From Thermorudis peleae (GTDB lineage: Bacteria; Chloroflexota; Chloroflexia; Thermomicrobiales; Thermomicrobiaceae), in assembly GCF_000744775.1 (NCBI RefSeq), contig NZ_JQMP01000003.1:248001-312000 (forward strand): DNA of 64,000 nt, read 5' to 3'. The position numbers were made by a program, and so were the translations under genes. The notes under the pieces are model-generated. The model worked only from the letters and a program-made list of their open reading frames with translations, was not told where the DNA came from and searched no databases. Below are positions 39,172 through 53,248 of this stretch, in pieces; the first letter of the stretch is position 1, and every line of letters begins with the position of its first letter.

Positions 39172-40326
39172 ATGTCAGCGAACGGTGACCCAGCACTGAT
39201 TGCGCTTCTTCACGACGAGATCCGCGCTCACGGGCCAATCACCTTCGCGCGCTTCATGGCTCTTGCACTCTACCACCCAACCCACGGCTACTACCAGAAA
39301 GCGGTACGGGTCGGCCGCGAAGGCGACTACTTGACCGCGCCGGAAGCACACCCGATCTTCGGCTGGACCCTCGCACGCCAGCTCGACGACTGCTGGCAAC
39401 TGCTCGGCCGGCCCGAACCGTTCGTCCTGCGCGAGTATGGTCCTGGCCCTGGCACGCTCATCCACTCACTGATCGAGGGACTCGACCGTATCGGCACGCC
39501 GTTGTCCCAGCGTCTGTGGTACCAGCCAGTTGAGCCCAGCGCAGCTCACCGTGCTGCCCTAGAAGAGCGATTGACCGCTCATGGCCTCGGCCAACGTCTT
39601 CTGGACGCAACGGCACAGCCGATCACCGGCGTTGTGTTAGCCAACGAAGTCCTTGATGCATTACCTTTCCATCGTGTCAGCTGGCACGACGGCCAACTGT
39701 GGGAACAGTATGTTGATTGGCAGGAAGGCCGCCTAGTCGCCGTCGAGGGGCCTCCGTCCACTCCAGCACTCGCTGAAACACTTCACGCGCTCGGCGTCAC
39801 CCTTGCCGAAGGCCAAACGACCGAAATCTGCCTCGCCTTAGCTGACTGGGTCGCCGAGGTAGCTAAGGCACTCGAACGTGGCTACGTGCTTGTCCTCGAC
39901 TACGGCTATCCTGTTCCCGAGCGCTACGACCCCCAGCGCTTCCCACATGGCACGCTCAAGACGTATCGCGCGCATACCGTCAGCGACGATCCATTAACCG
40001 CCGTTGGTGAGCAAGACATCACCGCCCATGTTGACTTCAGCCTGCTCGCCCACTATGCTCACCAGCACGGGCTGACGGTACTCGGTTTGACGACGCAGGC
40101 CGAGTTTCTTGCCCAAGCCGGCCTTGGCGACATTCTTGTAGCACTGCAGCACGAACCCGGCATGACCGCCCACCAGTACCTTGCCGCCCGGGCCGCTGCC
40201 TTTCACTTGCTTGATCCGGCTGGACTTGGCCGCTTCCGGGTCATGATCCTTGGCAAGAACGTGCCACCGACGCCGCCCCGCGGCCTCGGCCAGCGTCTCC
40301 TCTGCGGGGTTGCGCCAAGCCACTAA
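39172..40326 (+). CDS. MidA/NDUFAF7-like SAM-dependent methyltransferase (COG1565)
   Basis: 384 residues from ATG 39172 (GGAAGGAG 11 bases upstream; a GTG at 39160 overlaps that site). Family blocks: GPITFARFMALALYHPTHGYY, GDYLTAPEAHPIFGWTLA, the SAM loop LREYGPGPGTL near 90, NEVLDALPFHRV near 165, and LVLDYGYPVPERY near 245. The mitochondrial relative methylates an arginine of a complex I subunit. Whether the bacterial protein does the same is not known. Its end overlaps dnaA by four bases in convergent orientation. Confidence 0.88.
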   Translation: MSANGDPALIALLHDEIRAHGPITFARFMALALYHPTHGYYQKAVRVGREGDYLTAPEAHPIFGWTLARQLDDCWQLLGRPEPFVLREYGPGPGTLIHSLIEGLDRIGTPLSQRLWYQPVEPSAAHRAALEERLTAHGLGQRLLDATAQPITGVVLANEVLDALPFHRVSWHDGQLWEQYVDWQEGRLVAVEGPPSTPALAETLHALGVTLAEGQTTEICLALADWVAEVAKALERGYVLVLDYGYPVPERYDPQRFPHGTLKTYRAHTVSDDPLTAVGEQDITAHVDFSLLAHYAHQHGLTVLGLTTQAEFLAQAGLGDILVALQHEPGMTAHQYLAARAAAFHLLDPAGLGRFRVMILGKNVPPTPPRGLGQRLLCGVAPSH

Positions 40327-41711
40327 CCAGCAAGTAACCGCTCTCGTACAGCCAGAACCTCGCCACGCAACTGCGCATCGTGCTGGAGTTGCTGCTCAAT
40401 TTTTTCGATCCCGTGCAGCACGGTTGTATGGTCACGGCCACCAAGCCGCTGGCCAATTTCCACCAGCGACAACCCCAGTTCTTCGCGCAGGAGATACATG
40501 GCGACCTGCCGAGGCACAACGATGTCACGCCGCCGGCCTGGTCCCACGAGGTCGGCAGTCGAGATGCGATAGTAACGGCAGATCGTGTCGAGCACCGCCT
40601 CTGGCGTGAGCTGACGCCGCTGGGCCTCGGTATGCGCATCAGTCAGTGCCTCAACCGCGAGCTCAAGCGTTACTGGCCGATGGTAGAGTTGGGACAACGC
40701 CACCACGCGGTTCAGTGCCCCTTCGAGCTCACGGATATTCGACTCCACCTTGCGGGCAATGTACTCGAGCACGTCTGGAGGGATGGTGACGCCAAGTTCA
40801 CGGCCTTTTTCGGCCAGGATCGCCTGCCGCGTCTCTAAGTCAGGAGGCTGAACGTCGGCAATCAGCCCGCCTTCAAAGCGTGAACGCAAGCGATCCGTCA
40901 AGTTATGGATCGCTTTGGGCGGGCGATCGCTGGAGAGCACGATCTGCTTGCCAGCCTGGTAGAGCGCATTGAACGTATGGAAGAACTCCTCCTGCGTGCT
41001 TTCTTTGCCGGCAATGAACTGGATGTCGTCGATCATCAAGATGTCGATCGTGCGATAGCGGTTGCGGAACTCCTCGGTCCGCTGCAACCGAATCGCCTCA
41101 ATCAGATCATTGGTGAACGTCTCCGATGAAACATAGCGCACTTTGAGATCGGGATGTCGGGCTAGCGCACGATGACCAATCGCATGCAGGAGGTGCGTCT
41201 TTCCCAGACCTACTCCGCCATAGATGAAGAGTGGGTTGAACTTATCTGCAGGTCGATCAGCAACCGCCAGCGCCGCTGCGTGCGCGAGCCGGTTATTCGG
41301 CCCGACAACAAACTTCTCAAACGTATAGCGGGGATTCAGCCCATGCTCAGGGGTAACCGCCAGCTCGAGCTGACGCGGGGAAGCTGGCGGTTCCGGTTCA
41401 ACCACCGTGCTACGCCGCCCGCTGCGTCGCTGTCCCACGCTCGCAGCTGCCGGAACTGGCGCTTCACTGTTCAAGACCGTGAACTGTACGCCGACTGGCC
41501 GGCCAAGGATCAACTCGAGCGCTTCCTGGATCAGCGGGGCGAATTTACTGCGCAACTGCTCAGCTGCAAAACTGTTTGGCGCTCCAACGGTCGCGACATC
41601 ACCCTCGAGTGAGACGAGTTCCGTATGACGGAGCCAGGTCTCAAAGTTTGCGCGCGAGACCCGCGTCTCAAGCTCCCCTAATGCTGTTTGCCAGAGTTGC
41701 TTGGCTCGCAT
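40323..41711 (-). CDS. dnaA: Chromosomal replication initiator DnaA
   Basis: 462 residues from ATG 41711. Domain I is at about 1-85 (LWQTALGELETRVSRANFETW), the linker (domain II) is 90-130, and the AAA+ ATPase from 130 has YTFEKFVVGPNNRLAHAAAL, Walker A YGGVGLGKTH, Walker B MIDDIQFIAGK, and the sensor block DRLRSRFEGGL. Domain IV at the C-terminus has the DNA-recognition motif GGRDHTTVLHGI. dnaN, recF and gyrB are not next to it, so the usual dnaA-dnaN order is broken. Nearest DnaA-box cluster is 6.3 kb away. Confidence 0.97.
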   Translation of the reverse strand: MRAKQLWQTALGELETRVSRANFETWLRHTELVSLEGDVATVGAPNSFAAEQLRSKFAPLIQEALELILGRPVGVQFTVLNSEAPVPAAASVGQRRSGRRSTVVEPEPPASPRQLELAVTPEHGLNPRYTFEKFVVGPNNRLAHAAALAVADRPADKFNPLFIYGGVGLGKTHLLHAIGHRALARHPDLKVRYVSSETFTNDLIEAIRLQRTEEFRNRYRTIDILMIDDIQFIAGKESTQEEFFHTFNALYQAGKQIVLSSDRPPKAIHNLTDRLRSRFEGGLIADVQPPDLETRQAILAEKGRELGVTIPPDVLEYIARKVESNIRELEGALNRVVALSQLYHRPVTLELAVEALTDAHTEAQRRQLTPEAVLDTICRYYRISTADLVGPGRRRDIVVPRQVAMYLLREELGLSLVEIGQRLGGRDHTTVLHGIEKIEQQLQHDAQLRGEVLAVRERLLAG

Positions 41712-42010
41712 TGGCCCGGCCCCTCCCACCGTGTACGTACACATGGTGGGATCAGCGTAGCACGTCGTGAGGTTGCTGACAAGGTGTGTCAGCCAGACAA
41801 CGCCGAGCCGGGCAGGGCGCCCGGCTCGTGCGCGGGAAGGGGAGGGGTGGAGCGGGTCTCGCTCCAGCGGGATCAGAAGCGGGCTGGGGAACCCCGCTTC
41901 CACTATAAGTATACGGCCGACGGTTGCAGAAGGTTCCCAGTTCCCCAACGCGCCAGATCATGGTACCCTGTGACAAGCACGACACGGTCTTGGGTAGCTC
42001 GGGAGGAAGA
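41712..42010. promoter_or_regulatory. Hairpin-rich dnaA leader and divergent promoter region
   Basis: Four hairpins lie upstream of dnaA: CCCACC-GTGTAC/GTACAC-AT-GGTGGG (41725-41750, arms next to the GGGAGGGG ribosome site), GAGCCGGG/CCCGGCTC (41805-41827), GGAGCG/CGCTCC (41849-41865), and GAAGCGGG/CCCGCTTC (41876-41900). Minus-strand -10-like TATACT/TATAGT elements lie at about 41905-41915, so a dnaA transcript would carry all four. No DnaA box is seen here. The MarR promoter must be in the remainder, but I cannot place it. Confidence 0.5.
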
Positions 42011-46114: not shown

Positions 46115-47893
46115 ATGCTGACACAGTGGCGCGACCCAGAAGCTGAACAGGCCATTCTCGAGCAGATTACGATCGATGAGCCGTGGGCTCTCCTTGAGCG
46201 CTTTAGCACGCTCGAACGCCTCTCCGGCAGTCAGGACGAAGCCGAAGCGGTTGCGTACATCCAGGAACGGCTGGAAAGTTGGGGTATCCCTTACCGGCTC
46301 TATCACCCTACATGCCTCATCAGCCTGCCGCGCCGCGCAACACTCCGCACCCTCGCCCCTGTTGAGCGACCGATCCGTGCCAAAACTCTTTCGTTCAGCC
46401 CATCAACCGACGGGCACGAGATTGTAGGCGAACTGGTCTACGTTCCAGGCGAGCAGCCGACTGACATCGCCGGCGTCCTTGGCAGCGGCCCAACTCGCCT
46501 CACTGCCGATGTCCACGGCAAGGTCATCCTGACCGACGGCATGGGCATGGCCGCACGCGGTGTCGAGCTTGGACAGAGTGGCGCACTCGGGGTGATCTTT
46601 ATCCACCCTGGCCAGTACATCCATGAAGGCATTGCGACGACGAGCTGGGGATCACCTGACCTTGATGCCCTCGGCCGCGTGCCGCATGCCCCACTCCTGT
46701 CAATCGCTCGGCCTGATGGCGAGTGGCTCAAAGAACAACTTGCCAAGGGGCCGGTTACTGTTGCCCTTTCCACGGTCGTCGAAACCAGCTGGCGTCCTAT
46801 CCCCGTCCTTGTCGCCGAAATTCCGGGTTCGCCAGCAACTGATGAGTTCGTCCTGCTGCACGCGCACCTTGACTCCTGGCACGTTGGTATCGGCGACAAT
46901 GCGACTGGTGACGCGACGTTGCTTGAGCTCGCCCGCGTCTTCTGGCAGCATCGCGATCGCCTCCGCCGGACACTCCGCGTCGCCTGGTGGAGCGGCCATT
47001 CACACGGTCGATACGCTGGATCGACCTGGTTTGCCGACACATTTGCCCAAGATCTCGTGCCAAACTGTATTGCTCACATTAACTGTGACTCTCCGGGCTG
47101 CCGCTGGGCCACCGAATACCGCGACCTCTCATGGATGGCTGAGGCAAGCGACCTGCTCCGCACTGTCGTCTACGATCTGACACGGCAGCAGGCAACGGGT
47201 ACGCGCCCATCACGCGCCGGCGATTACTCGTTCAACAACCTCGGGATCACTGGTTTCCTCATGCTCTCATCGACCATGCCAGAAGAACTCGCCCGTGCGA
47301 AGGGCTTCTATCCCGTCGGTGGCTGCGGCGGCAACATTGTCTGGCACACGGAAGACGATACCCTCGAGGTTGCCGACCCCGATAACCTGCTGCGCGACAT
47401 GCGGGTCTATGCTGCCACAGTCCTGCGCGTGCTCAATGCGCCCGTTCACCCCTTCGACTATCGTGCGACGGTTCGCGAACTTGAAGGAGCGCTGCTCCGT
47501 TATCAAGAAGCTGCGGGCGACGCGTTTGACTTTGGGCCAGCCTTCCGTGCTGCCGGCAACTTGCTCACCACCCTCGACCGATTCTATGAGCTTGCCGAAA
47601 CCCTGCTCGATCGCGAAGTCGATGACCCCGATGTCCGACGGATCAATGCTGCCCAACGTGCACTTGCCCGACACCTTGTTCCGCTCGGCTACGTCCGGCA
47701 GGGACGGTTTCGCCACGATCCAGCACAAAACCTCCCACCGATTCCGGAAATTGCGCCTGCCGCTGAACTGGCGCATCTCCCACCCGAGAGCGACCGCTGG
47801 CACGCTGTTCGCGTTCACCTTGGCCGTGGACTGAATCAGGTCGTCTGGACGCTTCGCGCCGCCCAACGACGAATTGCCGAGATCCTTCCGTGA
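46115..47893 (+). CDS. M28-family metallopeptidase with PA domain
   Basis: 592 residues. A PA-like insertion at about 100-210 (GKVILTDGMG, GALGVIFIHPG) precedes the M28 catalytic domain with HAHLDSWHVGIGDNATGD (zinc His and Asp), INCDSPGCRW and IVWHTEDDTLEV. The usual EE catalytic pair reads WSGHSHGRYAGS here, so the general-base Glu is replaced and activity is uncertain. No signal peptide is seen. The C-terminal 150 residues are helical and lack a known domain. Reads toward the candidate origin. Confidence 0.85.
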   Translation: MLTQWRDPEAEQAILEQITIDEPWALLERFSTLERLSGSQDEAEAVAYIQERLESWGIPYRLYHPTCLISLPRRATLRTLAPVERPIRAKTLSFSPSTDGHEIVGELVYVPGEQPTDIAGVLGSGPTRLTADVHGKVILTDGMGMAARGVELGQSGALGVIFIHPGQYIHEGIATTSWGSPDLDALGRVPHAPLLSIARPDGEWLKEQLAKGPVTVALSTVVETSWRPIPVLVAEIPGSPATDEFVLLHAHLDSWHVGIGDNATGDATLLELARVFWQHRDRLRRTLRVAWWSGHSHGRYAGSTWFADTFAQDLVPNCIAHINCDSPGCRWATEYRDLSWMAEASDLLRTVVYDLTRQQATGTRPSRAGDYSFNNLGITGFLMLSSTMPEELARAKGFYPVGGCGGNIVWHTEDDTLEVADPDNLLRDMRVYAATVLRVLNAPVHPFDYRATVRELEGALLRYQEAAGDAFDFGPAFRAAGNLLTTLDRFYELAETLLDREVDDPDVRRINAAQRALARHLVPLGYVRQGRFRHDPAQNLPPIPEIAPAAELAHLPPESDRWHAVRVHLGRGLNQVVWTLRAAQRRIAEILP

Positions 47894-47975
47894 TACGGCG
47901 CGTGCTCTACCCCACTGCATGCTTCTGCCTGCCAGGCACAGCGCTACGCGGCTTCGCCAGGAGCCAGCCGTGGGA

Positions 47976-48277
47976 TGTGGAGAACTTACCCGCAAATGTG
48001 GATAACTCCATCAGGTTATCCACACCATCCGGGGAGAGTTGGCGCTTTCTTCGGGGATATCATGGGGATCACTCCTCCCGCAACGGGGATAGTTCCCCGA
48101 CTCGTCACTGCGTCACAGGGCACCAGGGAAAACACCAAGCTGAAACGGGCTGTTGCCCACACAGTCATCCAGGGCAACATTGCCGTCCCGACGAGGGAAC
48201 GTGCGGATTTCCCCACAATCCACACGCCCGACGAAGGACGACGAGATATACACAAAGAAGAGAAGAAGAGATCCACA
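47976..48277. other. oriC: Candidate chromosomal replication origin (oriC): DnaA-box cluster
   Basis: The 402-base gap between two plus-strand genes holds two perfect DnaA boxes in opposite orientation (TGTGGATAA 47997-48005; TTATCCACA 48016-48024). Near matches are TGTGGAGAA (47976), CAATCCACA (48216), ATATACACA (48246) and AGATCCACA (48269). A purine-rich, AT-richer tract at 48241-48270 could be the unwinding element. dnaA is 6.3 kb to one side and parS 5 kb to the other, and G/C bias in four hand-counted lines switches sign across this point. Confidence 0.75.
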
Positions 48278-48295
48278 CGAGGAAAGGAACGGTGC

Positions 48296-49450
48296 GTGGA
48301 ACACTACGATGTAATTGTCCTTGGTCTCGGAATTATGGGAAGCGCAACCGTTGCTACGCTTGCTCAACGTGGCTACCACGTCCTGGCACTTGAGGCGTTT
48401 TCGCGGCATCATACCAATGGCTCATCCCATGGCCGGACACGGATTATCCGTGAGGCCTACTTCGAATCGCCGGAGTATGTGCCACTGGTCCGGCGAGCGT
48501 ATGCGCGCTGGCGCGAACTCGAGGAGGTGACTGGACGCCGCCTTCTCCACATCACTGGCGGCTTGAGCATTGGCCGACCAGAGAGTGCATTCGTTGCGGG
48601 AGCGCTGGCAAGCGCCGAGCGCCACCAGATTCCCTATGAACTCCTCGATGCCTCAGCACTGATGACGCGGTTTCCTTTCCGCGTGCCTGACGACTTTGTC
48701 GGCTTACTTGAATCACGTGCTGGCTTTCTTGATGCTGAAGCTTGCCTCGATGCCTGCTGGGACGTTGCCCAACGCCACGGAGCCGCGTTGCGCTTTGAAG
48801 AACCGGTGCTGCAGTGGTGGGTTGACGGAGAAGGGGTAGCTGTTCAGACAGCAAAAGCCCGCTATGCCGCTGACCGACTCGTCATAACGCCTGGTCCATG
48901 GGCTCCGCAGGTGCTCGCCGGCCTTGGCCTTCCCTTGACTGTCCGACGAATCGTGAATGTCCATTTCGCGCCTGCTGACCCAAGCCGGTTTGCCGCTGAT
49001 CGCCTACCGATCTATCTTCTTGCGGTCGATGAAGGGCAGTACTACGGCTTCCCGGCCTTGCCTGAGCAGGGCGTGAAATTCGGCCGTCACGATGCTGGCG
49101 AGCCATGCACCCCTGAGACCTGCCGTCGGACTGTCACCGCTGACGAAATTGCCGCGCTCCAGTCTGTGCTCAACCGGTATGTGCCCGGTGCGGCGGATGG
49201 TGTGCTCTGGTCGTTTACCTGTCTCTATACTATGACCCCGGACGAGCACTTCATCATCGATCGCCATCCCCTCTGGCCACAGGTTGTGCTGGCTTGCGGC
49301 TTCTCGGGCCATGGGTTCAAGTTCGGGAGCGTTGTTGGAGAGATCGTGAGTGACCTTGCTCTCAACGGCAAAACCGAGCATCCAATCGGCTTCTTGCGCC
49401 TGCAACGCTTTGCCGAGAGCACAGGGAGCCAGGCGGCTAAGCATCAGTAG
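48296..49450 (+). CDS. Sarcosine oxidase / N-methyltryptophan oxidase-like flavoenzyme
   Basis: 384 residues from GTG 48296 (AAAGGA upstream); the longer frame runs through the DnaA boxes. FAD fold starts [21 protein letters not shown] in two parts (GLGIMGSA near 11). [20 protein letters not shown] is at 42-60. The C-terminal [17 protein letters not shown] has the cysteine that binds FAD covalently in monomeric sarcosine oxidase. Oxidises a secondary amine such as sarcosine or N-methylated amino acid, releasing formaldehyde and peroxide. Reads away from the candidate origin. Confidence 0.9.
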
Positions 49451-50427
49451 AAGATAGTTCGCGTTCGGTGGTAGGGCGGCGCCTCGGGCGGCAATGTTTG
49501 ACCAATTTGCCAAAGTGCCCAATCGACTCGCCACGCTGGCCAGTTGCCGCTTCGTTGGTCGAGCATTGCTGCGAGCCGTTCAACTGCTTGTACGGTCGCA
49601 GCGCGGATTTCGACCTCCCACGCACTCCCAGCGGGAATGAGCATTCGCTGGTCAATATGCGCTGCCAGATCAGGCGTGTAACGCAGTACCCCATGCCAAC
49701 GGAGTACCTGGGGCAGCTTGTAATCAGCGAAGGCGGTCAATATCGTCATATCCGTGAACTGCCCCAGAGGATGCCCGTGCAGCGCCCCAGCGATATCGCT
49801 CACCAGCAACTGTGCCCGCTTGTAAAAGCGCACTTCCTGCCCCTCATAAATGGCGATGTCGTTGAATGAAGGAAAAGCCTGCACGACGAGCCGGACGAGC
49901 GTGGCTGCGCTTCCCTGTGCACGTGCAAGCAATGTGTGAAAGTGCCCGTCTGCGTGCGCAAGGAGCCCCTTCCCGACTTCGCGCATGTGGCGCACGCGGG
50001 CAGAAAACAGGGGGATTTCGCCCTCTCCTGCAAGAATCGCTGCCACCTCGTTGTCCGTGATCGTGGCCAGGTAGTGCGCGTCCCAGAGTGGTTTACCTTG
50101 TTCAATAGCGCGCCGCAACGCTGCTGCCAACGCCCAGTACCCGTCGTATGTGACGCCGCGGTACTGCACGCGCCAGCGTGGCTCACCCCAAAAGCAGAAG
50201 TTCAGTGCATCGAGCACCAGCACATAGTTTGCCGTTGCTTCTGGTGCCCTTCGCCAGTGAAGCGGATGGTCCCAACTTGGTTCCCCCTCGGCATAGCGAG
50301 CAATTTGGTCAGCGAGTGCAGGAAGTGCTTCGTCCGCAATGGCAACACTTTTTGCCCGGCTCATGACCCAGGCTGTTGTCTCGCGCACGCCAAGGGGGTC
50401 GCTAACCGGTTCTCGCCGTTCTGTCAT
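49444..50427 (-). CDS. Queuosine salvage protein (DUF2419 family)
   Basis: 327 residues from ATG 50427. The DUF2419/Qng1 signature is clear: [19 protein letters not shown] near 70, [39 protein letters not shown] near 140, [20 protein letters not shown] near 185, [21 protein letters not shown] near 230, and the final WALWQIGQ. Such enzymes cleave queuosine 5'-phosphate to free queuine for salvage. No tgt or transporter gene adjoins. Converges with the oxidase gene. Confidence 0.87.
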
Positions 50428-50584
50428 CGCTCTTCCTACCGTTTCCTCTCGCCGATCTAGGACGAATGGCAGCTGTAGCTCTGCCGCGCAAGCTCGTATA
50501 CTGGCGGTGAAGTATTCCGGATCAGCCGCGAGGCGTGGGAGTAGGAGCGGACGCCGCGTCGGCGCAGGGTGGGGGTGAGTGGGA

Positions 50585-52297
50585 ATGACCATGCGACCCA
50601 TAACTGAAGTGGTGCAGCAGGCGGAAATGGCGCTTGAACAGGGTCGCCAGCTTGAGGCAGTGCGGCTTTGCCAAGCGTTGGTGACTCGCTTCCCGAAATA
50701 CTTCCGGGCTTATCTCCTCCTGGGCCAGGCGGCGCTGCGACTTGGCGACCTCCTTCTTGCTGAAGAAGCGTTGCAGGCAGCCCGCCGCTATCATCCTGGC
50801 TCGTCCGAAGCTCTGCTTGGCCTTGCCGATATTGCCGAGCAGCGTGGCCAGCGTGAGCTTGTGTTGCGTTATTGTCAGGCTGCGTGGGAACTCACTCCAT
50901 GGCAAAGCTCGCTCCGCCAACGCCTCGCCCGCTTGAGTGCCGCCCTCTTTGGCGAAGGTCAGCTCTTCTTCACGCTCCCCGCTCTTGCTTCAATGTACAT
51001 CCATCAGGGGCGCTGGATGCGGGCTGCTTTGGCTCTGGAAAGCGCGCTCCGTGATCTGAATGATCGTCCGGATCTTGAGCAGATGCTGGCGCTCGTTCTC
51101 TGGCGTGCTGGTCGCGTGCGTGACGCGTCGCAGTGGGCACATCGAGTGCTTGAGCGGTTGCCAGATGCTATCGTACCGTTGGCGGTGGTGATCGGTACTG
51201 ACAATGGTGACGCGTCGGTGATTGCTCCTCGCTTGTACGACGTTGACCTTGATGGTCAGGTCATGGCACAGGTGCTTGCTGAGTTCGGGGCGGTGGATGC
51301 ATACCAGAAGTTGAAGTATCCCGAGCCGCCGATGATTGACGAGGATGCGTTGGTAGCAGCGCAGCGTGAGCCTGCTCCCTTGCCCTCAGCTGAATCGACC
51401 GTCTCGCTCGAGCAAGAACTGGCGCTCCTTGACCAGCTCTTTCGTCTCCCGTCCCTCGACGAGCTCAGTACCCCGCCATCGCAACCAGCGGCACAGGGTG
51501 AGCCCGTTGCTCACACGCAGGATCAAGCTCCTCCACCAGAACCGCTCCTTTCCTTGCCGTCGGATGAAGAGCTTGAGGCGGCGCGGCCTTCGGATATCCC
51601 TGCCGCGCCCGAATTCGTACCGCTTGATTCTTTGCCCGATATTGCACCGTTCTCTCCCGAGGAACTCGGCCTCGTTGAGGCTGCTAGCCCTCAAGCTAGT
51701 GAGTCTACCCATCATCCCTCGGCTCAGGCTGAGCCGAATGAGGCTGAAGATCAGGTCGCCGAAACGCTCGCGCACCTCGGCGTTACTGACGACGTCGTTG
51801 AGCGTGCCCGTGCGGCCAAGCAGCAACTGCGCGAAACCGGCATCTTGCCGCCACTCCCGCCTGAGCCGCCATCTGAGCTACCTTTCCAGCTTCAGCAGGA
51901 AGCGCCAGCCGAACCAGCAGCGGCAAGTCCATCGGCTGACGTCCCGCCAGCAGTACCTTCACCTGCCGTGTCCGCTGAACCGGTTCCTGACCAGCCGAGT
52001 TCCGCCGGTGCGCAGGCGCCTGCTCCACCAGGTGATTCAGCGGACGCTCTTTTCGCTGCAGCGCAGGCTCAGCTTGAAGCGGGCCATCTCGATGAAGCAT
52101 TGCGCCTCTTTCATCGAGTTTTCCGTCTTGGTCCGGCCTACGACCAGCAGCTTGTTGCTGTGCTGAGCAGGATTGCTGAAGAAACGGAAGGGCGTGAGGC
52201 GGCTGCGGCTGACCGTCTACTCGGTGCCATCTATCGTCGGCAAGGTGCCGATGCCCTCGCTCGCCGCCACTATGAGCGTTCGCTTCGTCACCGCTAG
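50585..52297 (+). CDS. Tetratricopeptide-repeat protein with long acidic Pro-rich middle
   Basis: 570 residues from ATG 50585. N-terminal TPR units at about 10-150 (AEMALEQGRQLEAVRLCQAL, LLAEEALQAARRYHPGS), an uncharacterised segment to 260, then a low-complexity Pro/Glu/Ala region (about 265-480, e.g. PPPEPLLSLPSDEELEAARP), and a last TPR-like pair at 490-570 (AQAQLEAGHLDEALRLFHRV, AIYRRQGADALARRHYERSL). No signal peptide. A scaffold role is likely. Eight bases before a roadblock-like gene. Confidence 0.8.
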   Translation: MTMRPITEVVQQAEMALEQGRQLEAVRLCQALVTRFPKYFRAYLLLGQAALRLGDLLLAEEALQAARRYHPGSSEALLGLADIAEQRGQRELVLRYCQAAWELTPWQSSLRQRLARLSAALFGEGQLFFTLPALASMYIHQGRWMRAALALESALRDLNDRPDLEQMLALVLWRAGRVRDASQWAHRVLERLPDAIVPLAVVIGTDNGDASVIAPRLYDVDLDGQVMAQVLAEFGAVDAYQKLKYPEPPMIDEDALVAAQREPAPLPSAESTVSLEQELALLDQLFRLPSLDELSTPPSQPAAQGEPVAHTQDQAPPPEPLLSLPSDEELEAARPSDIPAAPEFVPLDSLPDIAPFSPEELGLVEAASPQASESTHHPSAQAEPNEAEDQVAETLAHLGVTDDVVERARAAKQQLRETGILPPLPPEPPSELPFQLQQEAPAEPAAASPSADVPPAVPSPAVSAEPVPDQPSSAGAQAPAPPGDSADALFAAAQAQLEAGHLDEALRLFHRVFRLGPAYDQQLVAVLSRIAEETEGREAAAADRLLGAIYRRQGADALARRHYERSLRHR

Positions 52298-52706: not shown

Positions 52707-52729
52707 CCGGCATGTGCCGGCTTTGTTTG
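52707..52729 (+). terminator. Terminator of the TPR-roadblock operon
   Basis: CCGGC, loop ATGT, GCCGG (52707-52720) followed by the T-rich CTTTGTTTGT. Located 50 bases after the roadblock stop and before ndk. Confidence 0.7.
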
Positions 52730-52776
52730 TGTATTGTGCATGCTTGCCGATGTGGAGATGTGGAGAGGAGTTGAGT

Positions 52777-53223
52777 GTGGAGCGCACGCTCATCATTATC
52801 AAGCCGGATGCCGTTCAGCGTGGCTTGATTGGCGAGATCCTCGCCCGCCTCGAGCGGCGTGGACTCCGCTTCGCTGGTCTCAAGCTCATGCACGTCAGTC
52901 GTGAGTTAGCCGAAAAGCACTATGCAGTGCACCGGGAGAAGCCGTTCTTCGCCGACCTCGTGCAGTTCATTACCTCTGGGCCGGTGGTTGTGGGCGTCGT
53001 CGAAGGCCCAGACGCGATTGCGATTACCCGGCGCACGGTTGGCGCGACGAATCCTGCGGAAGCGGCTCCTGGCACGATCCGTGGTGACTTTGGCTTGACG
53101 ATTGGCCAGAACTTGATCCATGCCTCTGACAGTCCAGAGTCGGCTGCGTACGAAATTGACCTCTTCTTCCGCCCCGAGGAATTGCTGAGCTATCAGCGCG
53201 CAATTGACCCTTGGATCGCCTAA
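52777..53223 (+). CDS. ndk: Nucleoside diphosphate kinase
   Basis: 148 residues from GTG 52777 with AGGAG six bases upstream; a TTG two codons earlier is an alternative. Phosphorylates NDPs using ATP. Motifs: [37 protein letters not shown], the nucleotide site [17 protein letters not shown], and the catalytic histidine in [12 protein letters not shown] near 117. Slight difference: the usual R-V-M-x-G-x-T is REL... region normal. Followed by parS. Confidence 0.96.
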
Positions 53224-53232
53224 TCCCGGCAA

Positions 53233-53248
53233 TGTTTCACGTGAAACA
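53233..53248. other. parS: parS centromere site
   Basis: TGTTTCACGTGAAACA is a perfect 16-base palindrome and equals the standard bacterial parS sequence bound by ParB. It lies nine bases after the ndk stop, 5 kb from the DnaA-box cluster. parAB themselves are not in the window. No second copy was noticed. Confidence 0.93.

Follow-up and report, generated by a model that had tools for sequence, protein, structure and literature searches.

In Escherichia coli strong and weak DnaA boxes are mixed at oriC beside an unwinding element, and the chromosome has neither parS nor ParB. This oriC is also separate from the dnaA gene (PMC8287927). One criterion for oriC is three or more clustered DnaA boxes at an average spacing below 100 bp (quoted in PMC7561715), while the rule for the basal unwinding system (BUS) describes a box, a spacer of 0–16 bases and then at least three NAN trios (PMC8287927). 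Closer to the organism studied here, the account of Thermomicrobium roseum DSM 5159 gives dnaA, dnaN and the gyrase genes as dispersed, with base 1 set by GC skew near dnaX (PMC2615216). We found no sequence-level origin for Sphaerobacter or the Thermomicrobia in the papers searched; DoriC may list the orthologous gaps of T. roseum or S. thermophilus.

Here we analyse a stretch of 64,000 nucleotides from Thermorudis peleae (C3:248001–312000 of a four-contig draft genome), referred to below as the window. Between the stop of an M28-family peptidase gene (47893) and an in-frame GTG at 48296 lies a gap of exactly 402 bases, which we read as the chromosomal oriC with a probability of roughly 93%, judged from sequence. 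We favour this reading because of the density of DnaA boxes, an unstable tract beside them, a minimum of the keto skew, a unique parS, and a module of genes and sites that is conserved at the skew switch of relatives. A first-pass annotation of the same DNA had already proposed the gap, at this size, as the chromosomal origin, and on these points the proposal is supported. The features are listed in Table 1.

Table 1. Features of the candidate origin and its surroundings, in window positions unless a contig (C3, C4) is named.
Feature	Position	Strand	Evidence or remark
dnaA, initiator	40323..41948	-	TIGR00362, E 3.7e-162
M28-family peptidase gene, left flank of gap	46115–47893		PF04389
Candidate oriC, intergenic	47894..48295	.	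Box count; keto-skew minimum 48290; orthologous in relatives
DnaA box TTCTCCACA, 1 mismatch	47976..47984	-	In most relatives 21–22 bases left of first perfect box
Weak DnaA box TTACCCGCA, 2 mismatches	47986..47994	+	
Perfect DnaA box TTATCCACA	47997..48005	-	Kept in every aligned relative; weaker box in G018
Perfect DnaA box TTATCCACA, inverted partner, N10 spacer	48016..48024	+	TTGTCCACA-like in g3 and g6 relatives
Weak DnaA box TTGCCCACA, 2 mismatches	48153..48161	+	Between left trio and right-hand pair
Weak DnaA box TTCCCCACA	48209..48217	+	First of conserved overlapping pair beside unwinding site
Weak DnaA box CAATCCACA	48216..48224	+	Second of conserved overlapping pair
G+C-rich spacer and degenerate trio-like stretch (CGCCC GACGA...)	48225..48242	+	CTACTA in several relatives; strict DnaA-trio rule does not hold
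Probable duplex unwinding element, purine-rich, A+T-rich	48243..48272	.	Least stable DNA in gap
Weak DnaA box AGATCCACA, 2 mismatches	48269..48277	+	Not conserved
FAD oxidase gene, N-methyl-L-tryptophan oxidase / sarcosine oxidase type	48296..49450	+	NF008425, E 6e-129
Queuosine salvage gene (Q_salvage)	49444..50601	-	PF10343, E 1.2e-88
TPR protein gene	50579..52297	+	Conserved neighbourhood
ndk, nucleoside-diphosphate kinase	52714..53223	+	NF001908, E 1.9e-63
parS TGTTTCACGTGAAACA, perfect 16-base palindrome	53233..53248	.	Adjoins ndk, also in relatives
ParB gene	C3:959635		
dnaN	C4:57489		Different contig from gap

Allowing up to two mismatches the gap holds 10 DnaA boxes, two of them perfect, one with a single mismatch and seven with two. 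Order-2 Markov simulations predict 0.475 such boxes per 405 bases, and none of 2000 simulations reached the observed count at 0, 1 or 2 mismatches. The three boxes with no more than one mismatch fall within 49 bases and all ten within 302 bases, giving more than the three boxes and less than the 100 bp mean spacing expected of an oriC. This is the densest spot of the window, and among the 10 perfect boxes of the whole 2.93 Mb genome the two in the gap are the only pair so close together. The first-pass annotation was right about these two (47997, -; 48016, +), while its count of four near-perfect boxes was generous, as one (47976) has a single mismatch and the others have two.

The purine-rich tract that it had also pointed out is confirmed, and proves to be the least stable DNA of the gap. 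It adjoins the boxes, and just 0.02% of the window's 30-base positions fall below it in stability. In G001, G006, G010 and the genomes of genus g3 the least stable tract lies at the same place. In several genera the least stable stretch follows a conserved block of approximately 40 bases, TTTCCCCAC-nn-TCCACA-nCCC-C(T/G)AC(T/G)A. With the box in its consensus orientation the gap contains no match to the BUS trio rule. We considered whether the purine tract could provide the DnaA-trios of the box at 48269, and do not claim this, since the rule is matched only if the box is turned round, the tract lacks conservation, and under this looser rule approximately 11% of shuffled sequences also match. 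The DnaA-trio repeat amounts to one or two units across the relatives, with two (CTACTA) left in several, and is degenerate here, which may reflect either an unwinding core poor in trios or some different arrangement.

The parS palindrome lies 5.2 kb from the gap and is the only site in the genome at up to two mismatches, so that the nearby parS of the first-pass annotation is real and unique; together with the ParB encoded in the genome it has the properties of a chromosomal Spo0J/ParB site. The dnaA gene is present in a single copy with a standard profile score, approximately 6 kb to the left of the gap. Since DnaA is standard by TIGR00362 and has GGRDHTTV, a stretch of the box-reading domain, it would be expected to read ordinary 9-base boxes. 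No box cluster was found at the promoter of dnaA itself, and the candidate lies neither in that promoter nor in a dnaA–dnaN gap, in agreement with the earlier view that the origin is outside the dnaA promoter, 6 kb from the gene, and that dnaN is not in its usual place. Neither RNA families nor tRNA genes were found in the window. No gene stays beside the origin more constantly across the order than the queuosine salvage gene, which has no obvious link to replication. On another contig, C1 (670 kb), there is a second ParB gene (C1:575515–576018), and the sampled skew switches sign between 450 and 600 kb; C1 may be a separate replicon like the megaplasmid of T. roseum, the assignment of C1 and C4 to replicons being a guess.

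A plain DNA similarity search with the gap returned nothing useful in the relatives, but patterns and gene order did find orthologues. The relatives include bacterium HR28 (G005), Sphaerobacter sp. (G006 and G010), Thermalbibacter longus (G007) and Thermomicrobium sp. CFH 73360 (G013). The inverted box pair, at up to two mismatches, occurs in 7 of the 30 relatives, covering three genera besides that of T. peleae. In six of these seven it sits inside the origin module, the seventh case (G010:C65) lying elsewhere, and in five of the six module genomes the pair is 4.7–5.7 kb from a single parS, the module of G011 being split over two contigs. Genera g2, g3, g4 and g6 share one order of box cluster, Q_salvage, TPR gene, ndk and parS, and the full module, with the oxidase gene between box cluster and Q_salvage, occurs in g3 and g6. 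When 13 gaps are aligned, the left box trio and the right-hand block prove to be conserved, with the geometry of two - boxes 21 bases apart and a + box 19 further kept across genera, so the gap is conserved in both place and sequence. Two Thermomicrobiales MAGs that are more distant have boxes flanking Q_salvage as well.

Other arrangements were seen along the way. One Sphaerobacter genome carries, away from parS, another inverted pair of boxes at identical spacing (G010:C65:25799–25826), which is possibly the origin of another replicon. In the more distant G020, from another family, 5 kb is enough to span dnaA, ndk and a pair of parS-like sites (L159:5818–10779), and this may be an older state, with dnaA moving away later. 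On the same stretch, approximately 25 copies of TTGTCCCCA at approximately 61-base spacing (L159:18416–19948) are probably a CRISPR array rather than DnaA boxes.

The position of the boxes relative to the strand-composition switch could be followed in three relatives. On the 2.05 Mb contig of G009 the sampled GC skew changes sign a single time, in the contig interior, being negative before and positive after; the G-C minimum is at 1,099,904 and the keto minimum at 1,101,728, with the boxes at 1,101,433–1,101,609 and dnaA 732 kb from them. The contig of bacterium HR28 is negative on the left and positive on the right, and within the 100 kb examined the skew minimum (507,427) lies close to boxes at 505,302–505,583, dnaA being approximately 710 kb from the boxes. 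In G001, a complete genome with noisy skew, the keto minimum is at 2,587,621, the boxes at 2,593,926–2,594,209 and dnaA 147 kb from the boxes. The skew minima are therefore approximately 0.1, 2 and 6 kb from the boxes and dnaA approximately 147 to 732 kb, suggesting that origin and parS stay together while dnaA wanders, and that the nearness of dnaA in T. peleae is uninformative. Going by these comparisons of sequence, the candidate origin is marked by the box–Q_salvage–TPR–ndk–parS module and not by dnaA.

In T. peleae itself the skew, read from sampled stretches, is less simple. In 12 kb windows the GC skew is -0.083 to the left of the gap and -0.008 to the right, that is, approximately zero rather than positive. 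The first-pass annotation had reported more C than G on the left and more G than C on the right from four 60-base lines, which are too few; the left half of this statement holds and the right half does not. Along C3 the GC skew is negative from approximately 80 kb to the site, approximately zero for 20–25 kb rightward, weakly positive from approximately 320 to approximately 392 kb, negative from 392 to 463 kb and then mostly positive. It counts against the origin that rightward of the gap the GC skew does no better than approximately zero over 20–100 kb. Strongly skewed, G+C-rich blocks occupy C3:160–240 kb and 463–530 kb. The AT skew changes sign near 282–287 kb, and over the contiguous 378 kb the keto skew (G+T-A-C) is lowest at C3:296290, inside the gap and 13 bases beyond the last box. 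A strand-composition switch at the site is thus seen in the keto skew and in the relatives. The keto measure was picked after the G-C result had been seen, and the argument for the origin is carried by the relatives and not by this choice.

Clusters of boxes also exist outside origins, and the gap is the promoter region of the oxidase gene, with a good ribosome-binding site. The cluster could thus be a DnaA control site, either for titration or reactivation in the manner of datA or DARS or as a DnaA-regulated oxidase promoter, with the origin elsewhere. We regard this as very unlikely, although it is the best of the alternatives. An oxidase promoter would not account for the cluster persisting where the oxidase gene is absent from the locus, as in G001, G006 and G010, the loci of genus g2 (Sphaerobacter) and the g4 genome G008. 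Nor would a control site be expected to lie beside parS in every relative where one contig covers the two, or to have skew minima within approximately 2 kb of the cluster here (keto) and in two relatives, and approximately 6 kb in a third. No second cluster of comparable size was found in the contiguous 378 kb.

A second alternative, which we consider even less probable, takes the true origin to be the minimum of the cumulative G-C curve. Over the contiguous 378 kb this minimum is the deepest at C3:463378, 167 kb from the gap, and the third-position skew changes strongly there. The first-pass annotation had named a skew minimum lying elsewhere as the result that would count against its reading, and on the G-C curve this is formally what was found. 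A G-C minimum at the boxes is not itself required of an oriC, and it lies within 2 kb of them in G009 and bacterium HR28. The position C3:463378 falls in an amino-sugar operon, within a beta-lactamase-like gene, has neither a box cluster nor a parS nearby, and shows no switch of the AT skew, and the keto curve is shallower there than at the gap (-4272 vs -5612). We therefore rejected an origin at C3:463 kb, and with it GC skew alone as proof of an origin. Compared with G009, the gene block at C3:418–430 kb, which lies within the negative-skew stretch, has the opposite orientation. This is what a rearranged right arm would show, and a recent rearrangement or integration in that arm likely explains the deviant skew, with some blocks that do not fit. 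Chance accumulation of boxes is the least credible explanation of all, as seven of the ten do carry two mismatches but no simulation matched the observed count, and both the box geometry and the right-hand block recur from genus to genus.

If the gap is the chromosomal origin, the arrangement of its sites suggests how it could work. DnaA would bind first to the strong left trio (47976, -; 47997, -; 48016, +), and further copies would then occupy the weak boxes rightward. The overlapping weak pair at 48209–48224 may guide the DnaA filament rightwards across the G+C-rich spacer, so that the A+T-rich tract at 48243–48272 would melt, allowing helicase loading and two forks to leave in opposite directions. 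ParB, loading at the parS site 5.2 kb from the gap, would separate the new origins.

A more general proposal, to which we give somewhat less than an even chance, joins two claims. The first is that origin, Q_salvage/TPR/ndk and parS form one fixed module from which dnaA moved repeatedly and independently, and the second is that its unwinding core is the conserved block of approximately 40 bases, opening with few or no proper DnaA-trios. The locus provides a base-level candidate origin for the Thermomicrobiaceae and their Sphaerobacter relatives, where dnaA is no marker and GC skew can mislead, and the Q_salvage–ndk–parS neighbourhood is a usable signpost to origins in further genomes of this group. 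An origin whose dnaA lies 6 kb away can here be compared, in a natural setting, with others where the distance reaches 700 kb, and the same holds for a thermophile unwinding core that may be poor in DnaA-trios.

Set against known systems, the candidate belongs with the familiar DnaA-dependent origins, and its position is lineage-specific. T. roseum DSM 5159, which probably belongs to the same family, resembles it in the dispersed dnaA, dnaN and gyrase genes and in an origin near dnaX. In the related G009 dnaX is approximately 12 kb from the box cluster, which agrees with the placement near dnaX described for T. roseum (PMC2615216). In the part of that account available to us the T. roseum origin was placed by GC skew alone, and boxes, unwinding tract and parS are not given (PMC2615216). 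With the dnaA–dnaN oriC of the Bacillus subtilis type the candidate shares a cluster of 9-base boxes, weak boxes by a G+C-rich spacer, an A+T-rich tract and a nearby parS, and differs in lying outside the dnaA promoter, with dnaN elsewhere and the DnaA-trio repeat degenerate. It is like the oriC of E. coli in its separation from dnaA and in having both strong and weak boxes next to an unwinding element, but the neighbouring genes and the box layout are different, and the parS/ParB pair has no counterpart on the E. coli chromosome.
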